Position numbers and translations under genes: made by a program
Shown here: one piece after another, positions 43,722-60,811 of the stretch
How the letters are laid out: each line of letters opens with the position of its first letter
Numbering within the stretch: position 1 is the first letter of the stretch
The notes under the pieces: model-generated
What the model saw: the letters and a program-made list of their open reading frames with translations, nothing else
Told to the model about the DNA's origin: nothing
The model's database searches: none
NCBI GenBank assembly: GCA_021324655.1
Contig: JAJPIP010000095.1
Coordinates: 1 to 64,000, forward strand
From: Pseudomonadota bacterium
Lineage (GTDB): Bacteria > Chloroflexota > UBA5177
Reading direction: 5' to 3'
Length of the DNA: 64,000 bases

Positions 43722-43863
43722 CTGAAATGAAAGGCCGCACCGGCGCGCGGAAACAGCCGCTTCGGTGCGCAACTAAGTGTACTGAACAAGACGGTATCGG
43801 GCAAGGGCGGGGAGGGCGGACCGGCGGCCGGCGACCACCTGGCGCAGGCGTGGGGGGTCCAAA

Positions 43864-43881
43864 GTAACGCCGTTGTAACGC
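43864..43881 (+). promoter_or_regulatory. 11-bp-period direct repeat upstream of the SARP-kinase gene
   Basis: Two perfect copies of GTAACGC separated by CGTT (43864-43870 and 43875-43881), i.e. an 11-bp period. Nine bases further is TAGAGT, a possible -10 element. This geometry is that of SARP or OmpR/PhoB activator sites overlapping the -35 region. A related repeat with the same spacing precedes the phosphatase gene at 47.5 kb. Confidence 0.55.
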
Positions 43882-44008
43882 GCCACTCCTTAGAGTCACC
43901 GTATGCGCCCGTCCCCGTACCCTGAGGACCGGTTTTCCTCGACATTGCGCTCGTTGGCCGCTATAATTCCGGCCACTACCTGGAGTTGCGACAGGACCGA
44001 GGGGGTCC

Positions 44009-47000
44009 ATGACGGATCGGGAGACGGGGTCAGGGAGTACACGCTATCGAGTAGGCGTGCTCGGCCCGTTGATCGTGGAGCGCGATGGGGTTCCCCTCGA
44101 TACGGCCCGCTGGCAGCATCGTGTCCAGACCCTCTTCAAACTCCTTGTCACGTCACCGGGGCGTCAGCGTCGCCGCGACGATCTTATCGACGTGCTGTGG
44201 CCGGACGCCGATCCCGACGCCGCGTCCGGCAATCTCCGTATCGTCGTCCATCGGCTGCGCCTCGCCCTCGACAGCGATCCGTCGGCGGTACTTTCGGCGA
44301 ATGGTTGGGTCACACTCAATCCGGCCTACGACTGGGTCCTCGATCTGGAGGAGATGGAAGAGTTAGCCTGCTCGGCACGGGGGGATTTGGGACGCCTCGA
44401 AAAGGCTGTCTCCCTGATGAGAGGTGAGCCCCTCGTGGAGGATCGGTATGATGACTGGGCCGCGCCGCTGATCGAGCGGGCCAGACACACCTGGCGGGAC
44501 GCGTGCCTGCAGCTCGCCGCGATTTTCACGGCGCGCGGCCACCACGAGGAAGCGGCGTCCTGGTACCGGCAAGTCCTCGATGCCGATCCGCTCGACGAGG
44601 AGGCGGTGCGCGGTCTCGTGTCGGCCATGGGTCGGGCCGGTCAGGCGGCGGACGCTCTGCGGACCTACGAGAGATTCCGCCAGGTGCTGGCGAACGATCT
44701 GGATGCTGAGCCGGCTCCGGAGACAGAAGTCCTCATCGAGCGCCTTCGGAGCCAGGCGACCGACGAGGGAGAGCGGGCTCTGCCCCGTGGCAGTTTTCTG
44801 GGAGCCGAACCGGACTCACCCCTGGTGGGGCGGGCCGATGAAGTGGAGCGGGCGCTCCTGGCGGCCGACGCGACCGAAGCCGGCGCGGGGCGATTGGTGA
44901 TGGTCACGGGTGAAGTGGGTGCCGGCAAGACGCGCCTCGCCCAGGAGGTGATGTTGCGTGTGCGCGATCGTGCCTTCGTCGCGGCGGCGGCCCGATGTTA
45001 CCTGCGCGACCGGGCCGTTCCATTCGCCGTTTTTCTCGACCTCATGTCGCAGGTCGAGTCCACGCTTCCACCTTCGATGCGGGACGAGGCACGCGCTCGC
45101 TGGCCGCTCCTTACTCTGCTCCTGCCCCATGGACGGCAGGCACCGGCGCCAGAGGACCCGGACGATCAGCATGCCCTATTTCGCGAGTGTGCTGCCTTCC
45201 TGGGATGGGCGGCGGAAAGGAGACCCCTCGCTCTTCTGCTCGATGATCTGCAGTACGCGGACGAAGGCACCCTCGATCTGATCGCCTACCTGGCCCGTGA
45301 AATACGCGGGCATTCCGTTTATGTGCTGGCCTGCTATCGCGATGGCGATATCAGTCGGGAGCACCCGCTGGCGGCGACCGTGCGAGACATGATGCGAGAA
45401 GGTGTGGTCGAGCGCATTGCCCTTAACCGCTTCACTCTGGAAGAGACGGGCGAACTGATTGCAGCCCTGCTGCGAGCCGGCCAGATACCCGGCGAATTCC
45501 CCGAGTTCGTCTTTCGCCGAACCCGCGGCAATCCGCTGTTTGTTGGGAAGATGATTCGTTCGTTGGGTGGCCGTTATCGTCTGCTCCGTCAGGTGGGTGC
45601 AGGCGGCATGGGGCGTGTATTCGAGGCGGTTGACGATCGAACCGGGCAGCGGGTGGCAGTCAAGCTCATGTTCGGGCGAACCGAGGCCGATCCAAAAGAG
45701 GTACTGCGATTCCAACAGGAGGGCGCGGTTCTCGCCGGCCTGCGACATCCGAACATCGTCCAGGTTCACGGCACGTTTGTGGAAGAGTACGCCAGTTGTA
45801 TCGCCATGGAAATGCTGGATGGACAGCCGCTGTCGGCCCTCCTCGAGAACGGCCCGCTGCCACTTGGCCGGGCGAAAAAACTCGCCACGCAAATTCTGTC
45901 GGCCCTCGCCGCAGCCCATGAGCGCGGGGTCGTGCACCGCGACATCAAACCGGCCAACGTGATGGTGCTGGACGATGACCACGCCGTCGTGACGGACTTC
46001 GGGGTCGCTCACCTCGCCCGCCACGGGACCGACACCAGTCTCACCTCGACCGGGCTAACCCTCGGTACGCCTCTCTACATGGCTCCCGAGCAGATCCAGG
46101 CCGGCAGGGTTGATGCGCGCACCGATCTCTATGCGGTTGGTGCGCTTCTCTATCACATGGTGACGGGCCGTCCTCCATTTCACGCCGATGACTCACTGGC
46201 GGTCGCTTTCATGCATGTCAATGACGCTCCGGTACCGGTGCGCGCGCGCCGGCCAGGCGCCGGTGAGGAATGGGACGCCGTCACGCTGCGAGCGCTGGCC
46301 AAGTCCCCCGACGACCGCTACCAGAGTGCTGTCGCGATGGCGCGGACTCTCTCGTCTCTGCCGGTCAATGAGCGAGAACCGGCCCGCCACCCCTCGACCC
46401 AGGCACCTTCGCTGCCGCACCAGGAGCCCAGCCCCGGCGGGCCGGGGGCCACCCGCTCGGTTGCCACCCTGCTCGGACTGGCCGCTGTGGCGTTGATCGC
46501 CGCCGTCTGGATCCTCCCTCACATCTTTCGATCGTCCCCCGCCATCTCGGCGTCCCTGCGTGGGCCCGATGCCGTGGCTGTCGACAGCCGCGGCGATGTC
46601 TACGTCACCGATCGCGGGAACGATCGTGTCGTTGAGTTCAACCCCGCGGGGCGCCTGATCAACGCGTGGGGGACACAGGGCGGCGGGAGCCTGCAATTTA
46701 GCAATCCCGGTGACCTCGCCCTGGCCCCCGACGGCAATCTGTACGTTGTAGATAACGCCAACCGGCGCATCGAGGTGCTATGGGGCGGGAGGCAAGTAGC
46801 CGGAGACCAGGTTGACGCGGGCTCCCTCACCTTTGACCGATCGGGACATCTCTTTGCCTCCGACTTCGGAGACTACCGGATCTGGGAATATGCCCGCGGG
46901 TGGCGACTCATCCGCATACTGCCGGCCCCCGAAATCCGAGTTGGCGCGCAGCCCTTTTCCGCCGGCATGGCCACTGACAGACAGGGGAACCTCTATGTCG

Positions 47001-47371
47001 CCGATCGGCTGAACGACCGGATAGTGAAACTGGCAGCCTCGGGTCACGTCCTGGCGGCGTATGGCCGCTATGGCTCCGGCATGCTATCCGCGGGCAGCGT
47101 CGCCCAATTCGACACGCCTTCCGCGGTGGCCGTGGACCGGCATGGCCAAATCTATGTCGGCGACACCCACAACGACCGCGTCGAGATCTTGTCTCCAGCC
47201 GGTCGTGTCCTGCGCGTCCTGCCCCCACCGAATAGCGGAACCGTGCTGGGCCAGGTGACGAGCGTCGCCGTGGATCAGCGCGGGGACATCTACGCCGCGG
47301 AGTATTACGACAACCAGCTGGTCAAGCTCGCGCCCAACGGGCGAGTGCTCTGGGTGACGCCGGGATCGTAA
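44009..47371 (+). CDS. SARP-BTAD / STAND ATPase / Ser-Thr kinase / NHL-propeller fusion protein
   Basis: A 1120-residue multidomain protein. Residues 12-105 form an OmpR-like winged helix and 110-255 a BTAD region, as in SARP activators. Residues 275-515 are a STAND-type ATPase with Walker A GEVGAGKT (about 301-308) and Walker B LALLLDDLQYAD (about 407-416). A Ser/Thr kinase follows (about 520-785): glycine loop GAGGMGRVFEA, VAVK lysine near 551, HRDIKPANVM near 643, DFG near 663, APEQ near 692. A Pro-rich linker leads to a membrane helix (about 818-838), then an extracytoplasmic NHL beta-propeller to the end. The kinase-helix-NHL half resembles mycobacterial PknD; fusion to a DNA-binding SARP is very unusual and would tether the regulator to the membrane. 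Own 11-bp operator-like repeat upstream. Confidence 0.92.
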   Translation: MTDRETGSGSTRYRVGVLGPLIVERDGVPLDTARWQHRVQTLFKLLVTSPGRQRRRDDLIDVLWPDADPDAASGNLRIVVHRLRLALDSDPSAVLSANGWVTLNPAYDWVLDLEEMEELACSARGDLGRLEKAVSLMRGEPLVEDRYDDWAAPLIERARHTWRDACLQLAAIFTARGHHEEAASWYRQVLDADPLDEEAVRGLVSAMGRAGQAADALRTYERFRQVLANDLDAEPAPETEVLIERLRSQATDEGERALPRGSFLGAEPDSPLVGRADEVERALLAADATEAGAGRLVMVTGEVGAGKTRLAQEVMLRVRDRAFVAAAARCYLRDRAVPFAVFLDLMSQVESTLPPSMRDEARARWPLLTLLLPHGRQAPAPEDPDDQHALFRECAAFLGWAAERRPLALLLDDLQYADEGTLDLIAYLAREIRGHSVYVLACYRDGDISREHPLAATVRDMMREGVVERIALNRFTLEETGELIAALLRAGQIPGEFPEFVFRRTRGNPLFVGKMIRSLGGRYRLLRQVGAGGMGRVFEAVDDRTGQRVAVKLMFGRTEADPKEVLRFQQEGAVLAGLRHPNIVQVHGTFVEEYASCIAMEMLDGQPLSALLENGPLPLGRAKKLATQILSALAAAHERGVVHRDIKPANVMVLDDDHAVVTDFGVAHLARHGTDTSLTSTGLTLGTPLYMAPEQIQAGRVDARTDLYAVGALLYHMVTGRPPFHADDSLAVAFMHVNDAPVPVRARRPGAGEEWDAVTLRALAKSPDDRYQSAVAMARTLSSLPVNEREPARHPSTQAPSLPHQEPSPGGPGATRSVATLLGLAAVALIAAVWILPHIFRSSPAISASLRGPDAVAVDSRGDVYVTDRGNDRVVEFNPAGRLINAWGTQGGGSLQFSNPGDLALAPDGNLYVVDNANRRIEVLWGGRQVAGDQVDAGSLTFDRSGHLFASDFGDYRIWEYARGWRLIRILPAPEIRVGAQPFSAGMATDRQGNLYVADRLNDRIVKLAASGHVLAAYGRYGSGMLSAGSVAQFDTPSAVAVDRHGQIYVGDTHNDRVEILSPAGRVLRVLPPPNSGTVLGQVTSVAVDQRGDIYAAEYYDNQLVKLAPNGRVLWVTPGS

Positions 47372-47470
47372 CCGTCCGAACGTCGTTCGGTCTCTGATTC
47401 GGGCCACGCGGCGAGATATCTCTCTCCTCGCAGCCTGTCGAAGAAGCCTGGTCTCACCGGATGGCCACGT

Positions 47471-47488
47471 GTAACGACTCTGTAACGT
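47471..47488 (+). promoter_or_regulatory. 11-bp-period direct repeat upstream of the secreted phosphatase genes
   Basis: GTAACG at 47471-47476 and again at 47482-47487, an 11-bp period, inside a gap of 257 bp between the fusion gene and the phosphoesterase gene. Nine bases after the second half comes CACTAT, at the same distance as TAGAGT in the site at 43.9 kb; both possible -10 elements keep A at position 2 and T at position 6. Sharing of core and geometry suggests a common activator. Confidence 0.55.
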
Positions 47489-47628
47489 TGCGCCTGCCAC
47501 TATGCGCTCACCATCCGTTCAGGGTCTGCGGGTCACGAATTGTCCAAGGAGGTGGTGCCGTGAGTAGACAGACAGCACAGGAGCTAGGTCCAGGGAGGAA
47601 TCGACAACATCCATGGAGGAGGACAGCA

Positions 47629-49542
47629 ATGAAAGGACTCGTTTTGAGACGTCTTGCACCGGCGGTTGCGGTTGTGGCGCTCCTGGCGTTCGCATCCGTC
47701 CCGCATGGTTCTGCCGCCGGCGTGATCGTGTCGGGCGGGGCTCCGGTCGCCGCTGTCGGACTTGATCACTCACTGGCGACGACGCTGTCGACGACCACGC
47801 CGATCAAGCACCTGGTCGTCATCTTCCAGGAGAACGTCTCGTTTGATCACTACTTCGGGACGTATCCCTACGCTGCCAATCCGCCGGGCGAGCCGGTCTT
47901 CACCCCGCGCGGCAACACTCCCGCCGTCAATGGCCTGACGCCGCAGCTCCTTACCCAGAATCCCAACAGTGTTCAGCCCTTCCGCCTGGATCGGTTGCAG
48001 GCGCTGACCTGCGATCAGTCGCACACTTACACGGCTGAGCAGCAGGCCGAGGACAACGGTCTGATGGACAAATTCGTTCAGTACACCGAGGGCAAGGCGG
48101 GTAACAGCCGGCAGTACTGCCCAGCCGGGACGGTAATGGGGTACTACGACGGCAACACCGTGACCGCCCTCTGGAACTACGCTCAGCACTTCGCCATGAG
48201 CGATAACGCCTATGGCACCCTCTTTGGTCCCTCGACCCCCGGCGCGCTCGATCTCGTCGCCGCCGATACGTACGGCGCCATCTGCGGGCCGGCGACCTTT
48301 GTCTACAACGCCCCCGCCTGCAGCACGACGACGCCGCCCGCTACCTCAGGCGGGACCGGCACGGTCTACCGCGACGCCGACCCCTACTACGATGACTGCG
48401 CGAACAAGAGCAAGGGCGCCGCTCTGACCGCGCCGAACATCGGCAACTTCCTCGATACGGCCGGCATCACCTGGGGGTGGTTCCAGGGTGGCTTCGCCGA
48501 TTGCAAAGCCAAACACCCGCTGACGGCCGTCGACCGCCTGATGGGCATCGACCCGGCGACCGACGCCATCACCTACGGGGAGTACGACGCCCATCACAAT
48601 CCCTTCCAGTACTTCGCCTCGACGGCGAATCCTCACCACCTGCCCCCCAGCAGCGCTGCCATGATCGGGCAGACCGATCAGGCCAACCACCTCTACGACC
48701 TCACTGACTTCTGGACAGCGGCGGATGCCGGCAACATGCCGGCGGTCTCCTTCCTCAAGGCGCCGGGGTATCAGGACGGCCATGCCGGCAGCTCTGATCC
48801 GCTCGACGAGCAGGAGTTCCTGGTCGACACCATCAGCCACCTGATGAGCCTGCCCTCGTGGCGAACCACAGCGATCATCGTCCAGTACGATGATTCCGAC
48901 GGCTGGTACGACCACGTGCGGGGCCCGATCGTTAACCATTCGGCAACCTCGCTCGACTTCGGCTGCGGCACGACCACGGATGGGCCGGGGGCCCGCTGCG
49001 GCTACGGACCCCGCCTTCCGTACCTGGTCATCTCACCGTACGCGCGGGACAACGATGTCGATCACACCTTGATCGACCAGACCTCGACCACGCGCTTCAT
49101 CGAGGACAATTGGCTGGGCGGCGAGCGCCTGACGGCGCAATCCTTCGACAATCGCGCCGGCTCGATCCTGGGGATGTTCGACTTCAACCATTCCTCGGGC
49201 CGCCGCCTCTTCCTCGATCCTCAGATGGGAACCGTGCTGCCGGATCAGGACGCCTTCGAGGTGGACTTCTCCAGCATGACGCCCGATCAGGGCATGGTCT
49301 ACTTCGGCTCCGGTCCCGGGTGCACGGGACTGGTGGAAGTTGCCACCCAGGACGCGGGGACGGGCACGACGGAACATCGCGTCCTGGTCACGGGCAACGA
49401 TCTCCCCGGCTCGGTTGGGGATAACGGGATCGTGCCGGGCACCACCTACTGGTACGAGACGGTGACCTTCTCGCCGAGCAGCGGGCAACAGATTGACAAC
49501 AACGGTGGCAAGTGCTACTCGGTGACCGTTCCATCGTCCTGA
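47629..49542 (+). CDS. Secreted phosphoesterase (phospholipase C / acid phosphatase family)
   Basis: A 637-residue secreted enzyme of the phosphoesterase family that includes phospholipases C and AcpA. A signal peptide covers residues 1-30. IKHLVVIFQENVSFDHYFG is the family's metal- and phosphate-binding start; VQYDDSDGWYDHV near 425 and PYLVISPYARDNDVDHT carry the other active-site residues. A separate C-terminal domain of about 90 residues (from near 545) with two Cys is shared with the next gene. ATG 47629 has GGAGGAGGAC upstream; the longer open frame lacks a signal. It may scavenge phosphate from lipids or phosphoesters. Confidence 0.9.
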   Translation: MKGLVLRRLAPAVAVVALLAFASVPHGSAAGVIVSGGAPVAAVGLDHSLATTLSTTTPIKHLVVIFQENVSFDHYFGTYPYAANPPGEPVFTPRGNTPAVNGLTPQLLTQNPNSVQPFRLDRLQALTCDQSHTYTAEQQAEDNGLMDKFVQYTEGKAGNSRQYCPAGTVMGYYDGNTVTALWNYAQHFAMSDNAYGTLFGPSTPGALDLVAADTYGAICGPATFVYNAPACSTTTPPATSGGTGTVYRDADPYYDDCANKSKGAALTAPNIGNFLDTAGITWGWFQGGFADCKAKHPLTAVDRLMGIDPATDAITYGEYDAHHNPFQYFASTANPHHLPPSSAAMIGQTDQANHLYDLTDFWTAADAGNMPAVSFLKAPGYQDGHAGSSDPLDEQEFLVDTISHLMSLPSWRTTAIIVQYDDSDGWYDHVRGPIVNHSATSLDFGCGTTTDGPGARCGYGPRLPYLVISPYARDNDVDHTLIDQTSTTRFIEDNWLGGERLTAQSFDNRAGSILGMFDFNHSSGRRLFLDPQMGTVLPDQDAFEVDFSSMTPDQGMVYFGSGPGCTGLVEVATQDAGTGTTEHRVLVTGNDLPGSVGDNGIVPGTTYWYETVTFSPSSGQQIDNNGGKCYSVTVPSS

Positions 49543-49603: not shown

Positions 49604-50902
49604 ATGAAACGCGTCGTGACCAGTTTGATGGTGGTCGTGCTGATGTCCTGGGTGGGGTGGAGCAATCGCTCCGCCCGCGCGCAGGGTGCCGCGGTCACCG
49701 TGATGGCGGCGGGTGATATCGCCTGTAGTCCCAGCGATCCAAACTTCAACCATGGTCAGGGGACGGCCAGGTTCTGCCACGAGATGGCCACGTCGAATCT
49801 GATCGTGGCAGCCCATCCCGATGCCGTGTTCGCGCTGGGTGATCTCCAGTACGGCGGTGGCACGCTCGCCGCGTTCCAGCAGTCGTACGGGCCCAGCTGG
49901 GGACGGGTTCGCGCCATCACCTACCCCTTGCTCGGCAACGAGGACTATGCGAACCCGGATGCCATGGGCTACTTCGGCTACTTCGGAAAGCTCGCCCGGA
50001 ACGACCCGGGCGGCTACTACAGCTTCGACCTCGGCGCGTGGCACATCATCTCACTGAACAGTCTGTGTAATGAGCCCGGGGTCGGCGGATGCGGCATCGG
50101 GAGCTCGCAAGAGACCTGGCTCTTGGACGATCTCGCCTCCCATCGGTCTGCCTGCACCCTCGCCATGTGGCACTTTCCGCGCTTTACCTCCGGCAAGAAC
50201 GGCAACCACCCGGAGATGCAGACCTTCTGGGATGACCTGTACGCCTTTGGGACCGATATTCTGCTCCACGGCCACGACCACATCTACGAGCGCTTCGCCC
50301 CCCAGAACCCCGGGCAGCAGGCCGACCCGCGCGGCATTCGAGAGTTCATCGTGGGCACCGGCGGCAATAACCACCAACCCCACTTCGGCACCCTGCAACC
50401 CAACAATGAGGTGCTGGACAATACGACGTTTGGCGTGTTGAAGCTATCGCTGGCCGACGGATCCTACGCCTGGGAGTTCCTGCCTGATCAACAGGCCGGG
50501 AACGGCAAGTTGACCGACCAGGGGACGGGAACGTGCCATCCCGTCGGCGCCGGCTCGACCGGGCCGCGGGCGGTCCCCCTTCTCTCCGCGGATGGCGATG
50601 GCGGCATGGTGGCGCGCTTCACCGTGGATTACATGAGTAAAGATCCGGGACAGGGTGAGGTTCTCTTCGGTCCCGGTCCTGGCTGCACCGGTCTGATCAT
50701 GACCGCGACGGCGGACCGGGGCGCGGGCAGCACGCATCATCGGTTCATCGTGACCGGTGACGACCTGGCCGGACCCGGCGACGATACCGGCCTCCTGCCG
50801 GGGGCCACCTACTGGTACGAGACGGCCACCATGACGGGCTCAGGTTCTGAGATTGATAACAACGGCGGCAAGTGTTACGCCGTGACGATACCGAAGAGTT
50901 AA
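49604..50902 (+). CDS. Secreted metallophosphoesterase
   Basis: A 432-residue secreted calcineurin-type phosphoesterase (purple acid phosphatase-like). After a signal peptide (MKRVVTSLMVVVLMSWVGWS), metal motifs are AAGDIAC, ALGDLQYGGG, LLGNEDY, MWHFPRF and LHGHDHIYER. In the third motif the usual GNH is GN-E, so the catalytic His is missing or displaced. The last 90 residues repeat the C-terminal domain of the preceding enzyme (GCTGL, HRFIVTGDDL, ATYWYETAT, IDNNGGKCYAVT). It starts 61 bp after that gene and is presumably cotranscribed. Confidence 0.88.
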   Translation: MKRVVTSLMVVVLMSWVGWSNRSARAQGAAVTVMAAGDIACSPSDPNFNHGQGTARFCHEMATSNLIVAAHPDAVFALGDLQYGGGTLAAFQQSYGPSWGRVRAITYPLLGNEDYANPDAMGYFGYFGKLARNDPGGYYSFDLGAWHIISLNSLCNEPGVGGCGIGSSQETWLLDDLASHRSACTLAMWHFPRFTSGKNGNHPEMQTFWDDLYAFGTDILLHGHDHIYERFAPQNPGQQADPRGIREFIVGTGGNNHQPHFGTLQPNNEVLDNTTFGVLKLSLADGSYAWEFLPDQQAGNGKLTDQGTGTCHPVGAGSTGPRAVPLLSADGDGGMVARFTVDYMSKDPGQGEVLFGPGPGCTGLIMTATADRGAGSTHHRFIVTGDDLAGPGDDTGLLPGATYWYETATMTGSGSEIDNNGGKCYAVTIPKS

Positions 50903-51054: not shown

Positions 51055-52560
51055 TCAGAACGGCCGGCTCGCGCCGTCGATCGGCAGCTTCATCGTGAAG
51101 GTCGTACCCGCACCGGGCGAGGAATCCACTGTCAGATCACCGCCGTGGGCGTCGGCGATTCCGCGGGCGAGGTAGAGGCCCAGCCCCAAGCCGGACGAAT
51201 CACCGCGAGAGGCGTGGCGCGTGAAGAGGTGAGGCAGGAGGTCCGAGGCAATGCCGGGGCCCTCGTCATGGATGTCGATCACGGCCCACTCGGTTTCCTC
51301 TCCGGACCGGCGTCCCGCGTTCACCATGATCGGCACGCCGGGTTCGGTGTGCTGAATTGCATTCCCGATCAAATTGTGCAGGGCCTGAGTGATCCGCATG
51401 GGATCAACACTGGCCGTCAGCCTCTCGGGGCCGCGCACCTGGATGTCGGTGCTATCGACCTCGACATCGGCAACGACGTTGTTAATCAACTCCATGATGT
51501 TGGTCGGACGGCGACTGAGAGAGAACACGCCACCCTGCAGACGAGAGGCATCGAGGAGATCGCGGACCATTCTGCGGAGACGATCCAGCGACTCCGAGAT
51601 CCGCTCGGCCTGACTCGCCGCACCCGCGTTGTCCTCCCGCACCAGTCGCCGGAGCAGGAGATCCAGCTGACCCTTCACCGGCGTAATCTGATTGCCCAGG
51701 TCGTGGGCCACCGTCTCGAGCATTTCCTCGGCAACCAGCCGACGCGTCTCGTCGATCGCCTGGCGTGTCACTGCCTCATGTAATTGCGCGCGGTGCGCGA
51801 CGATCGCGACCCATCGACTGGCGGCGTCCAGAAATTCGCGTTCCGCGGGCCCGAATCGATCGGGATGCGTCGATTCGGACGCCAGGATACCCCGAATCTT
51901 GCCGTCCACCTGCAGCGGAACCACGTACATCGAGCGAACGCCGAGAGCATGAACGATCCCACGACTCACTTCAGGATCCTGGTCGGCGTGCCCCGTGAAG
52001 AAAGGCTCGCCTGTCTCGAAGACCTGCACCTGGCGTCCGCCGTTCGCGATTGGTACGCGATTCAGACCGACACGTATCTGCGCCCGCCCGATTTCGGTGT
52101 TGCTGGTCCCGAGGGCTACCAGTGTCCCCGTCTCCTCCTCGTAGAGAAAGAGGTCGACTTTGTCGGCGCCCATGGCCCGGGCGATGAGGTCGCCGGCCTG
52201 GTTCATCGCGTCGCGAACCGTTACGGCGTCGATCTCCAGGAGCTGCTGGAGGGTGTACCGCAGAATTCTATCGGCGCGACTTCCATCACTGCCCGACGGT
52301 TGAAGGCTATGCGCCGGTTCGGCGACGCTGAAGCCGACGGCCTCCATGAGCGCGCCGAGCGGAAGTTGGATCGCCTCGGCGAGGTGGGCGAGCAACGGCA
52401 AGGAAGGCAGCCCGTACTTGCCGTTCTCCAAAGCCGAGATGCGTTCCTGACTCCATCCCAGGCGCTCGGCGACCTGCGCCTGCGTCAGACCCAGCTCGCG
52501 CCGGCGCTCGCGGACTGTGGCACCGAGCTTCTCAAGATCGGTTTCAGCCCCTGTCGCCAC
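51055..52560 (-). CDS. XRE-GAF histidine kinase
   Basis: A 501-residue cytoplasmic kinase. Residues 10-75 are an XRE helix-turn-helix (RELGLTQAQVAERLGWSQER), residues 105-270 a GAF sensor domain, then the phosphoacceptor helix with His near 284 in ETVAHDLGNQITPVKG and an HATPase domain (LHNLIGNAIQHTEPG, DEGPGI, GLGLGLYLARG). A DNA-binding domain fused to the kinase itself is uncommon and suggests it senses while bound to DNA. The response regulator gene lies 119 bp upstream on the same strand, and an 11-bp-period repeat array sits in that gap. No membrane segment is present. Confidence 0.9.
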   Translation of the reverse strand: MATGAETDLEKLGATVRERRRELGLTQAQVAERLGWSQERISALENGKYGLPSLPLLAHLAEAIQLPLGALMEAVGFSVAEPAHSLQPSGSDGSRADRILRYTLQQLLEIDAVTVRDAMNQAGDLIARAMGADKVDLFLYEEETGTLVALGTSNTEIGRAQIRVGLNRVPIANGGRQVQVFETGEPFFTGHADQDPEVSRGIVHALGVRSMYVVPLQVDGKIRGILASESTHPDRFGPAEREFLDAASRWVAIVAHRAQLHEAVTRQAIDETRRLVAEEMLETVAHDLGNQITPVKGQLDLLLRRLVREDNAGAASQAERISESLDRLRRMVRDLLDASRLQGGVFSLSRRPTNIMELINNVVADVEVDSTDIQVRGPERLTASVDPMRITQALHNLIGNAIQHTEPGVPIMVNAGRRSGEETEWAVIDIHDEGPGIASDLLPHLFTRHASRGDSSGLGLGLYLARGIADAHGGDLTVDSSPGAGTTFTMKLPIDGASRPF

Positions 52561-52679: not shown

Positions 52680-53384
52680 TCACTCGGTGTGGCGCGCCGC
52701 AAGGAGGCGGTATCCGATCCCACGTTCCGTCTGAATGTAGGCGGGTGACTCGTCATTGTCTTCCAACTTGTCCCGGAGGCGCTGGATGAACACGCGGAGT
52801 GAGGCCAGGTCGTTCCCGTACTCCGGCCCCCAGACCCGGCTGAGGAGATATTGGTGAGGCAGCGTGCGTCCGGAGTGACGCATGAGCTCTTCGAGGAGGC
52901 GGTATTCCGTGGCGGTGAGCGGCACCACCCGGCCGTCCACCCGGACCTGACGCGTGACTGGATCCAGCGTGAGGCCGCCGACCGAGATGGTTTGCACCGG
53001 CTCGGCACCGTCCGCTGTTTGCGCGCGCCGGAGTAGCGCACGAAGGCGTGCCAATAGTTCCAGATGGTCGAACGGCTTGGTCAGGTAGTCGTCGGCACCG
53101 AGGTCAAACGCATGGACCTTATCGGACGTGGCGCCGCGCACGGTGAGCATCATGATGGGGACCTGCGAGATCTGACGGATACGCGAGAGGACGTCGAAGC
53201 CGTCCGGCGGGGGCAGAGAGACATCGAGCACGACCAGGTCGGGTAGTTCGCGGCTGAAGCCGCGCAGTGCCTCGGTGCCGCTCTGCGCCAGCACCACGTC
53301 GGCGTCCGGCCACATCATCCGCACGCCGTACGCCACCATCGCCGCTACATCCGGCTCATCGTCCGCGATCAGGATTTTGGGCAT
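52680..53384 (-). CDS. OmpR/PhoB-family response regulator
   Basis: A 234-residue two-component regulator. The receiver domain has the acidic pocket DDE at 8-10, phosphoacceptor D54 in VVLDVSLPPP, and KPF near 105. The C-terminal winged helix contains the PhoB-type segments LTATEYRLLEELMRH and YIQTERGIGYRL. Such regulators bind direct repeats with 11-bp spacing, as found upstream of the kinase gene, the phosphatase genes and the SARP-kinase gene. It is the obvious partner of the XRE-GAF kinase downstream. Confidence 0.93.
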   Translation of the reverse strand: MPKILIADDEPDVAAMVAYGVRMMWPDADVVLAQSGTEALRGFSRELPDLVVLDVSLPPPDGFDVLSRIRQISQVPIMMLTVRGATSDKVHAFDLGADDYLTKPFDHLELLARLRALLRRAQTADGAEPVQTISVGGLTLDPVTRQVRVDGRVVPLTATEYRLLEELMRHSGRTLPHQYLLSRVWGPEYGNDLASLRVFIQRLRDKLEDNDESPAYIQTERGIGYRLLAARHTE

Positions 53385-53598
53385 TGTTTACTGCCCCGGA
53401 GATATCCGGCGACGCAGTCGCTTGTCAGGAACGTTGCTGAGTATATGCCTGCTGGGGACATCCCTGTCCAGTCTCCGGCTCCGCTCGGGCACTGTGGGTG
53501 TGATACAGGTACAGACAGGAACCGGGAACGAAGAAAACGCCCATGATCCCGATGTAGGCCACGCGGGGGAGAAGGCTCCAGATCGCCGAGGAGTGGAG

Positions 53599-58806: not shown

Positions 58807-60618
58807 TTATGCGCTGTCGCGTTCGGACGCTTGGGCGGAGGAGCGTGAGCGCGATTCTCTCAGGTGACGGCTCAGCTGATAGTCGCCGGCGGCTTCCGGT
58901 CGATCCCGCAGTGTGCCACGACGCAGGGAGCCGGCAGAACTCTGCAGCCGCCATGTTCCGTCTATGCAGCGAATGAGCCCTCGTCCCCGGAGGGCAAACA
59001 CGGCTTCTTCGACGAAATGGGGGATGCCCTCGGACGCCTCGAGAACGGCCTCGATGATGCCTGTCTCGGCTTGGCCGTTCAGCAGGCTTTGCACGAGTTC
59101 AGTCACGTCCTGTATCGTCAACGGTTCGAGGCGTAGGGTCGATGTCGCACTGCTTTCACTGAATTGCTGCAGGAGCCAGGTTAAGACCTGGTTCGTGGCG
59201 AGCTCATCGTCCCGCACGGTGCATACGACCAACAGGGGAAAGCCTTCGACGATTCGGGCTAAATGGGCGAGGAACTCCAGACTTCGTTCATCGGCGTGTT
59301 GAACGTCTTCCAGAACCAGCACGCTCGGCGCCAACTGCGACATGCGAGCAAGGACGTAGGTCAGGGCAGCGAAGATACGGGACTCGTTCAAAGGCTCCGG
59401 ATAGTACCCCATGACACGCCCGATGGTTGGAGCCAGCATCCCCAGTTCCTTCTCGAAGGTTCCAATCAGGTGGGCCAGGGACTTGGGCGGGACGCGGAGC
59501 GAGATGCCGTCAAGAGCTGCACCGAACAGTCCATACGGGCGCGTCTGCGTCTCAGGATAGGCCGCGCTCCACATGGTCAAGGCCCCGCGCGAGCCCGCTT
59601 CCTCCGCTATCTTCCGGGCCACCCAGCTCTTCCCGATGCCGGCTGGACCCATCAACACAATCACGCCACCGACGCCAAGGAACAGTTGATCGATTGACCG
59701 TCGGCACCCGCTCAAGATGTCTTCGCGTGGAGCCTCACTCGGCTCACGGGCGGGCGCGCCCGGGTCTTTCGTCACGGTCCGAGCGACCGGTGAGTCGAAT
59801 TCTCCTTGCAGGATGCGCTGATAGATCGCCACCGTGGATGGATCGGGCTCCGCATCAAGCTCCTCACGGAGAGCAGCAGCGAGCTGGTGGAACTGACGCA
59901 GCGCCAACTGCCGCTGTCCCGTCGCTGCATAGAGTCGCATGACGGCAACGTGTGCCTGCTCGTGTGCTTCGTCGATAGCGATGACCCGGCGCAGTGCCTC
60001 CAGTGCTGGTTCCAGATCTCCGCGAGACTCGTGGAGGGACGCGAGATCGAGGAGCACCGACTGGTGGAGTTCCTCCAGTGCCGATCGTTCTCGCAGCACC
60101 CAATCTTCGTAACGGTCTTCAGGCAGCAGTGGCCCCGTATACAGACTGAGGGCACGCTCGTGTAACGTTGGGTCGCCACTTCCGAGTGCTTGAATGGCTG
60201 CCAGCCGAAAGTCTTCGACATCCGTGAAGATGCCGGCCTCGGACTCGAGCGCGACCAGGTCACCGTGGAACCGCACATAAGAGGAGCCGGTGTTGGGTAG
60301 CAGGTCGGGCTCCAGCGAGCGGCGTGCCACGTAAATGACCTTGTGAAGGTTGTTCACCGCCGACTCGAACGTCATGCCCGGCCACAGGGCATCAACGATC
60401 TCTCCACGGTGAAGCCTTCTTCCCGGAGCAAGCGTGAGCATCTTGATCAAGCTCTTTGCTCGCCGCAAATACCAGCTCTCGGTCGGGACAACGCGCGTCC
60501 CAACCCGCACCTCGAATGCACCGAGGAGAGATATATAAAGAGGCTCTACGTCCTCGGTCGCATGGCCGAGCCGGGAGCGGACTGCCGCGCCCGGATCACC
60601 TTCCACTTCCGCCGTCAC
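58807..60618 (-). CDS. SARP-type regulator with STAND ATPase
   Basis: A protein of about 603 residues. The N-terminal winged helix (YISLLGAFEVRVGTRVVP, then LHRGEIVDALWPG) and BTAD region form a SARP activator; a STAND ATPase follows with Walker A LMGPAGIGKS near 322 and Walker B VLVLEDVQHAD. The protein ends soon after the ATPase and lacks the TPR or LuxR tail of AfsR/MalT-type relatives. GTG 60618 after GGCGGGGGA is the likely start; the open frame extends 58 residues upstream without similarity. A PAS-LuxR gene lies just upstream on the same strand. It is a relative of the front half of the fusion protein at 44 kb. Confidence 0.88.
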   Translation of the reverse strand: MTAEVEGDPGAAVRSRLGHATEDVEPLYISLLGAFEVRVGTRVVPTESWYLRRAKSLIKMLTLAPGRRLHRGEIVDALWPGMTFESAVNNLHKVIYVARRSLEPDLLPNTGSSYVRFHGDLVALESEAGIFTDVEDFRLAAIQALGSGDPTLHERALSLYTGPLLPEDRYEDWVLRERSALEELHQSVLLDLASLHESRGDLEPALEALRRVIAIDEAHEQAHVAVMRLYAATGQRQLALRQFHQLAAALREELDAEPDPSTVAIYQRILQGEFDSPVARTVTKDPGAPAREPSEAPREDILSGCRRSIDQLFLGVGGVIVLMGPAGIGKSWVARKIAEEAGSRGALTMWSAAYPETQTRPYGLFGAALDGISLRVPPKSLAHLIGTFEKELGMLAPTIGRVMGYYPEPLNESRIFAALTYVLARMSQLAPSVLVLEDVQHADERSLEFLAHLARIVEGFPLLVVCTVRDDELATNQVLTWLLQQFSESSATSTLRLEPLTIQDVTELVQSLLNGQAETGIIEAVLEASEGIPHFVEEAVFALRGRGLIRCIDGTWRLQSSAGSLRRGTLRDRPEAAGDYQLSRHLRESRSRSSAQASERDSA

Positions 60619-60790
60619 CTTGGTCCCCCGCCTTAATAGGATCGCCTGATCGATTCCGGATCCACAGGTGCCCCCAAGACCCGGATCGCGCGCTGGTCGC
60701 CCGATGTGCGGCTGCGGCAGCACCGTCTCCTGCCACCGCGGTCCTGAAGATCGAGTTATGACCAACATACGAGCAGCCCCGCCAAGTGTC

Positions 60791-60811
60791 AATACCTCAA
60801 AAAGGGGTATT
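60791..60811. promoter_or_regulatory. Palindrome between LuxR and SARP genes
   Basis: AATACC (60791-60796) and GGTATT (60806-60811) form an inverted repeat around an A-rich centre, 37 bp after the LuxR stop and 170 bp before the SARP start. It may be an operator for the SARP gene or part of a weak terminator; no T run follows on the minus strand. The surrounding 229 bp hold no other recognisable element. Confidence 0.35.

Follow-up and report, generated by a model that had tools for sequence, protein, structure and literature searches.

AfsR of Streptomyces combines a SARP module, a NOD/STAND core, and a C-terminal TPR part, and is phosphorylated by the separate kinases AfsK, AfsL, and PkaG. 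Phosphorylation on Ser/Thr by separate kinases, AfsK among them, serves the control of AfsR, and phosphorylation by AfsK results in stronger DNA binding (PMC10972967, PMC10936776). In Mycobacterium, PknD (Mbk), located in the pst locus (PMC1262709), consists of a kinase, a transmembrane (TM) helix, and an NHL propeller, without STAND or DNA-binding part. EmbR and PknH place a SARP-type regulator under Ser/Thr kinase control (PMC1262709) as two separate proteins, EmbR having an FHA domain (PMC10936776), and PknK, a transcription regulator, holds a kinase and a STAND NTPase in one chain (PMC9045387).

The gene described here lies in a 64,000-nucleotide stretch of DNA (the window). Its product shares with AfsR the order of SARP winged helix, BTAD, and STAND, but carries a kinase in place of the part after the STAND core, plus a TM helix and a presumed sensor. 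Kinase, TM helix, and NHL propeller follow in the same order as in PknD; unlike a PknD-type protein, whose kinase is N-terminal and without other cytoplasmic domains, this chain begins with approximately 510 residues of SARP and STAND modules. A SARP-type regulator is paired with a Ser/Thr kinase as in EmbR-PknH, but within one protein. Kinase and STAND NTPase share a chain as in PknK, where the order is reversed, with the kinase N-terminal; PknK acts on separate regulators such as VirS and has no SARP head, TM helix, or propeller. Activators of the CadC/ToxR type have an OmpR-type winged helix tethered through one TM helix to an outside sensor, comparable to the layout presumed here, but without a kinase and without an NTPase. 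No SARP or BTAD protein joined to a kinase was found in the literature searched, subscription papers lying outside it, so that absence is not proven. The architecture, made of known modules, is apparently undescribed, in line with the original prediction.

Modules of the fused protein

The gene is a single ATG-initiated frame of 1,120 codons without internal stop, and the reverse strand in register with it is broken up by stops. The five modules predicted in order from this frame were borne out by the open reading frame, the Pfam domain search, and the motifs (Table 1). Pfam matches comprise BTAD at residues 128-247 (E 2e-18), AAA_16 at 271-433 (E 3e-23), Pkinase at 523-735 (E 3e-48), and NHL starting at residue 850 (E 5e-24). 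The Trans_reg_C match at 40-92 (E 2e-4) scores 21.8, below the Pfam cut-off of 26.2, and one SARP from the same taxonomic order scores similarly (23.6 bits). In a PDB search with the N-terminal half, AfsR is the best match (E 7e-16), covering winged helix and BTAD at residues 8-246; the OmpR-type winged helix followed by BTAD that characterizes a SARP is present. The NHL part matches the PknD NHL structures 1rwi/1rwl (E 2e-22), and a PDB fold search with the protein returned mostly kinase and NHL matches.

The STAND core carries Walker A GEVGAGKTR (301-309), Walker B LLLDDLQ (409-415), and RRTRGNP (503-509, with GNP at 507-509). No winged-helix/TPR part was found after the GNP motif, which sets the protein apart from large SARPs of the AfsR type; the kinase begins about 10 residues past the motif, at residue ~518. 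Ordinary SARP-STAND proteins of these genomes (e.g. L061 and L079) have the GNP motif followed by the winged-helix/TPR part. The predicted STAND ATPase therefore holds as an NTPase core with intact motifs, but not as a complete module, being truncated by the absence of that part. The kinase, whose standing had been made to depend on its catalytic residues, retains all of them: the G-loop (530-538), K552, E571, H643-R-D645, K647, N650, D663-F-G, and P693-E694. Among these, K552, E571, D645, N650, D663, and E694, the mark of a Hanks-type kinase, are invariant across all five STAND-kinase fusion proteins described below.

Topology prediction gives one strong TM segment. An AlphaFold model based on 5 aligned sequences (mean pLDDT 69.6, pTM 0.43) places the NTPase, the kinase, one helix (822-838), and the propeller as separate modules, the propeller having 23 strands that are read as six blades. 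The N-terminal winged helix and the linker 790-845 have low confidence in the model.

Table 1. Features of the locus, with positions in the window, and of the related fusion proteins.
Feature	Position	Strand	Basis or remark
Box 1, AGTAACG-CCGT-TGTAACG	43863..43880	+	one mismatch; conserved in G002
-10-like TAGAGT, 10 nt past box 1	43891-43896	+	
Sigma-70-like promoter TCGACA-17-TATAAT ahead of fusion gene	43939..43967	+	read from alignment; conserved in G002
Fusion gene, 1,120 aa: SARP winged helix + BTAD + STAND NTPase core + Ser/Thr kinase + TM + NHL propeller	44009..47371	+	ORF, Pfam, orthologue
SARP module (residues ~13-250): winged helix 13-100, recognition helix about 75-87, BTAD 101-250	44045..44758	+	Pfam, PDB match, alignment
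STAND NTPase core (residues ~269-512)	44813..45544	+	Pfam and motifs
Hanks-type Ser/Thr kinase (residues ~518-785), PknB-like	45560..46363	+	Pfam and catalytic residues
Single transmembrane helix (residues 818-836)	46460..46516	+	predicted
NHL propeller (residues ~845-1120), read as six-bladed, presumed extracytoplasmic	46541..47368	+	Pfam, PknD NHL match, model
Box 2, TGTAACG-ACTC-TGTAACG	47470..47487	+	conserved in G002
CACTAT, 10 nt past box 2	47498-47503	+	
Secreted phosphoesterase (PF04185; phospholipase C / acid phosphatase type), proposed target gene	47629..49542	+	
Secreted calcineurin-like phosphoesterase	49604..50902	+	by inspection; no Pfam match at 1e-5
L055: HTH_31 + AAA_16 + kinase + TM + NHL	single contig		
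L056 (G003): HTH_31 + AAA_16 + kinase + TM + Bmp/PnrA-like C-terminal sensor	5189-8143 of L056, single contig		
L057 (G001): AAA_16 + kinase + TM + NHL, without DNA-binding head	single contig		

Reality, relatives and origin of the fusion

The source genome (G000; 3.8 Mb) is a draft of 114 contigs, in which an assembly or frameshift artefact might be suspected. This reading was rejected and carries a negligible probability. G002, which belongs to a different genus of this family, shows the same domain order. Its orthologue is cut by a contig end: one contig matches residues 8-730 (62% identity) and a second one residues 685-1119 (54%). These contigs overlap at their ends by exactly 141 nt, as is typical of a node in an assembly graph, and joining them gives 1,125 aa without stop. 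Three further proteins (L055, L056, and L057), from two further genomes of the family, contain the STAND-kinase junction within single contigs, and GC3 is even across the junction in the fusion gene. The stretch at residues 510-525, where a misassembly or frameshift had been considered, thus holds a junction present in five proteins from four genomes. The SARP-STAND-kinase-TM-NHL fusion is real and conserved.

The spacing from the GNP motif to the glycine loop is identical in all five fusion proteins, and the C-terminus of L056 reads as a natural sensor swap. A profile search with the STAND-kinase core detected the fusion in four of the five family genomes and in neither of the two other genomes of the class; elsewhere among 400 phylum genomes no fusion appeared among the three best candidates scored per genome. 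A junction DNA pattern, independent of candidate ranking and recovering 4 of the 5 known fusions, limited the recognisable junctions among the 400 phylum genomes to G000-G003. The same pattern was matched in 51 of 397 Actinomycetota genomes; a STAND-kinase junction there was rejected, none being seen among the matched stretches listed and inspected, part of which were translated. Scanning genome contigs with the whole protein gave single-domain relatives only. The proposed search for the same architecture across genomes yields the full order once more, in G002, and, within the genomes searched, a core recognised only in the family.

The five fusions group together in the kinase tree (support 87/71); adding an unfused kinase-TM-NHL protein of G002 gives a clade with support 100/100, which makes that protein the sister kinase of the fusions. 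The STAND tree is compatible with a single origin (support 53/11, weak). We infer that a STAND gene and a kinase-TM-NHL gene were joined once, and that heads and sensors were swapped afterwards. Sequence identity of the G000 and G002 proteins reaches 72% in the winged helix, 68% in the kinase, 59% in BTAD, 56% in STAND, and 53% in NHL, and is lowest (32-33%) in the juxtamembrane and TM segments. Since winged helix and kinase are the best conserved, DNA binding and kinase activity both look constrained, and neither the DNA-binding nor the kinase end is decaying. Three of the five fusion proteins have no SARP head, indicating that the STAND-kinase core does not require one.

Boxes, promoters and neighbouring genes

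A direct repeat predicted at 43864-43881 is real and is placed at 43863-43880 (box 1), ahead of the fusion gene; a second, better copy at 47470-47487 (box 2) precedes the next gene, that of the secreted PF04185 phosphoesterase. With up to 2 mismatches, TGTAACG-N4-TGTAACG is expected by chance 0.10 times in the window. With at most one mismatch, the whole of G000 contains six sites and the reversed control none, and G002 contains two only, in the corresponding positions on either side of its fusion gene, where intergenic alignments of the two genomes show the box as a clear conserved island. The hexamer TAnnnT follows the box after 10 nt in 5 of 11 sites and after 9 nt in one, with no other distance up to 24. 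SARP promoters have repeats 11 bp apart that overlap the -35 region and end about 8 bp before the -10, a layout that the 10-nt distance from box to -10 fits (PMC10936776). The two direct repeats, at 11-bp pitch and with the repeat geometry of AfsR binding sites, are candidate SARP sites. The sigma-70-like promoter downstream of box 1 could provide basal expression of the fusion gene.

The same geometry (7+4+7, with 10 nt to the -10) is shared by PhoB sites. The pstS promoter of G003 has a one-mismatch box among other repeats, TGTAACAACTCTGTAACG, and pstS of G004 has weaker copies. A PstS-type phosphate-binding protein (PF12849) has good matches in G003-G005 and was not found in G000 and G002, drafts in which absence is uncertain. 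Across 301 genomes the exact box was counted 17 times, 13 of them outside the family of G000, compared with about 10 for the reversed control; a phylum-wide Pho box was rejected, the number outside the family being mostly chance. A -10-like hexamer lies 9-10 nt downstream in 7 of 10 exact-box sites inspected, as counted by eye. The same box with a -10-like hexamer 10 nt after it was seen in L201, L202, L206, and L210, from distant members of the phylum; in L210 the exact box comes after an OmpR-type regulator/histidine kinase pair, and in L206 the box adjoins a divergent SARP-like gene.

Boxes stand at SARP genes in G000, G002, and G005, and about ten other SARP loci inspected have no box nearby. 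In G005, a genome of the same order, genes for an unfused kinase-TM protein, a PF04185 phosphoesterase, and a SARP-STAND-TPR protein adjoin (L079:925-7830), with a box directly after the SARP gene; a second SARP-STAND-TPR gene of this genome (L132:1466-5160) overlaps a box at its end and is followed by a secreted RCC1-repeat protein. A PF04185-family gene also comes after the fusion orthologue in G002. Further box-led genes in G000 and relatives encode a type I phosphodiesterase (a looser match), a PIG-V-like mannosyltransferase, and several secreted proteins. The calcineurin-like phosphoesterase gene is possibly co-transcribed with the PF04185 gene before it. Beyond these genes, the minus strand of the window carries at 51055-52560 a protein that, by inspection, starts with an HTH, continues with a GAF-like part, and ends as a histidine kinase, a DNA-binding domain thus being fused to a histidine kinase; a response regulator adjoins it at 52698-53387. 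About 11 kb downstream of the fusion gene, at 58810-60792 on the minus strand, lies a second SARP/BTAD-type protein of 661 aa, with no TGTAACG box near.

Proposed mechanism and its significance

From the observed domain order, conservation, boxes, and gene order, we infer a membrane-anchored SARP activator that is controlled by its own kinase and acts on its own gene and the neighbouring phosphoesterase gene, a proposal given about an even chance of being right. The NHL propeller would lie outside the cell, and the SARP module, STAND core, and kinase would be cytoplasmic. In response to a ligand or a state of the surface, propeller packing and dimerisation would change, upon which the kinase would phosphorylate itself and the adjoining STAND/SARP part, comparable to the action of separate kinases on AfsR. 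Paired SARP modules would then occupy the boxes, which would overlap the -35 region, and switch on both the fusion gene and the gene of the secreted phosphoesterase. This best accounts for the intact domains and residues, the orthologue in another genus, the conservation pattern, the conserved boxes with SARP-like spacing, and the clustering of kinase-TM, phosphoesterase, and SARP genes with a box in G005, and has a precedent in AfsK-AfsR. It is weakened by the box geometry, which equally fits PhoB-type sites, as at pstS of G003 and the L210 pair, by the lack of a box at most other SARP genes inspected, and by the three of five fusion proteins without SARP head.

The boxes may instead be sites of PhoB or another OmpR-type regulator governing a phosphate or surface regulon, with the fusion acting mainly as a kinase and its SARP part binding elsewhere. 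That explanation is unlikely but has several points in its favour, namely the Pho-box geometry, the near-perfect copy at pstS of G003 and weaker ones in G004, phosphoesterases as targets, and a PhoB-like regulator in G000 that is 60% identical to that of G003. Against it, G002 keeps both boxes, yet its best PhoB match reaches only 47%, like its other response regulators; G000 and G002, both drafts, gave no PstS match; G005 has PhoB but no box at its pstS locus; and SARP genes carry boxes in three genomes.

A tethered SARP dimer would have to find its way to its own locus, an unusual demand for which regulators of the CadC/ToxR type are a known example. The problem would vanish if a signal led to proteolysis and a soluble SARP-STAND(-kinase) fragment were set free to activate the genes, and both the poorly conserved juxtamembrane and TM segments and the low-confidence linker would allow cleavage; however, no protease or cleavage motif was identified, and such release is improbable. 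An equally slim chance is assigned to the STAND-kinase core being the working unit, a nucleotide-driven kinase assembly at the membrane whose SARP/HTH heads mainly dimerise or target it, DNA binding being secondary. The core, with its fixed spacing, is common to all five proteins, while heads vary or are absent, as in G001, but between the G000 and G002 proteins no domain is better conserved than the winged helix, and boxes flank the fusion gene in both genomes.

Returning to the membrane-anchored SARP activator, a single-chain kinase-activator is the likely mechanism, judged from sequence. Bacterial Ser/Thr kinases usually act on genes via separate regulators, and which regulator belongs to which kinase is difficult to establish; in this locus the kinase, the regulator, and the probable target promoters are genetically tied, and the relatives provide natural domain swaps. 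With the fusion it can be asked directly whether kinase control of a DNA-binding domain works within one chain. As a Rosetta-stone hint, the fusion suggests joint action of SARP-STAND regulators with kinase-TM proteins encoded nearby, as in G005. The exchanged ends in relatives suggest modular wiring of an outside signal straight to a gene. Somewhat more tentatively than the mechanism itself, the fusions may represent a class of transcription factors specific to this lineage, single-chain receptor kinases with a common STAND-kinase core, in which heads (SARP/HTH) and sensors (NHL/Bmp/PnrA-like) are exchanged and kinase action would relay an outside signal within the chain or dimer to the DNA-binding end.
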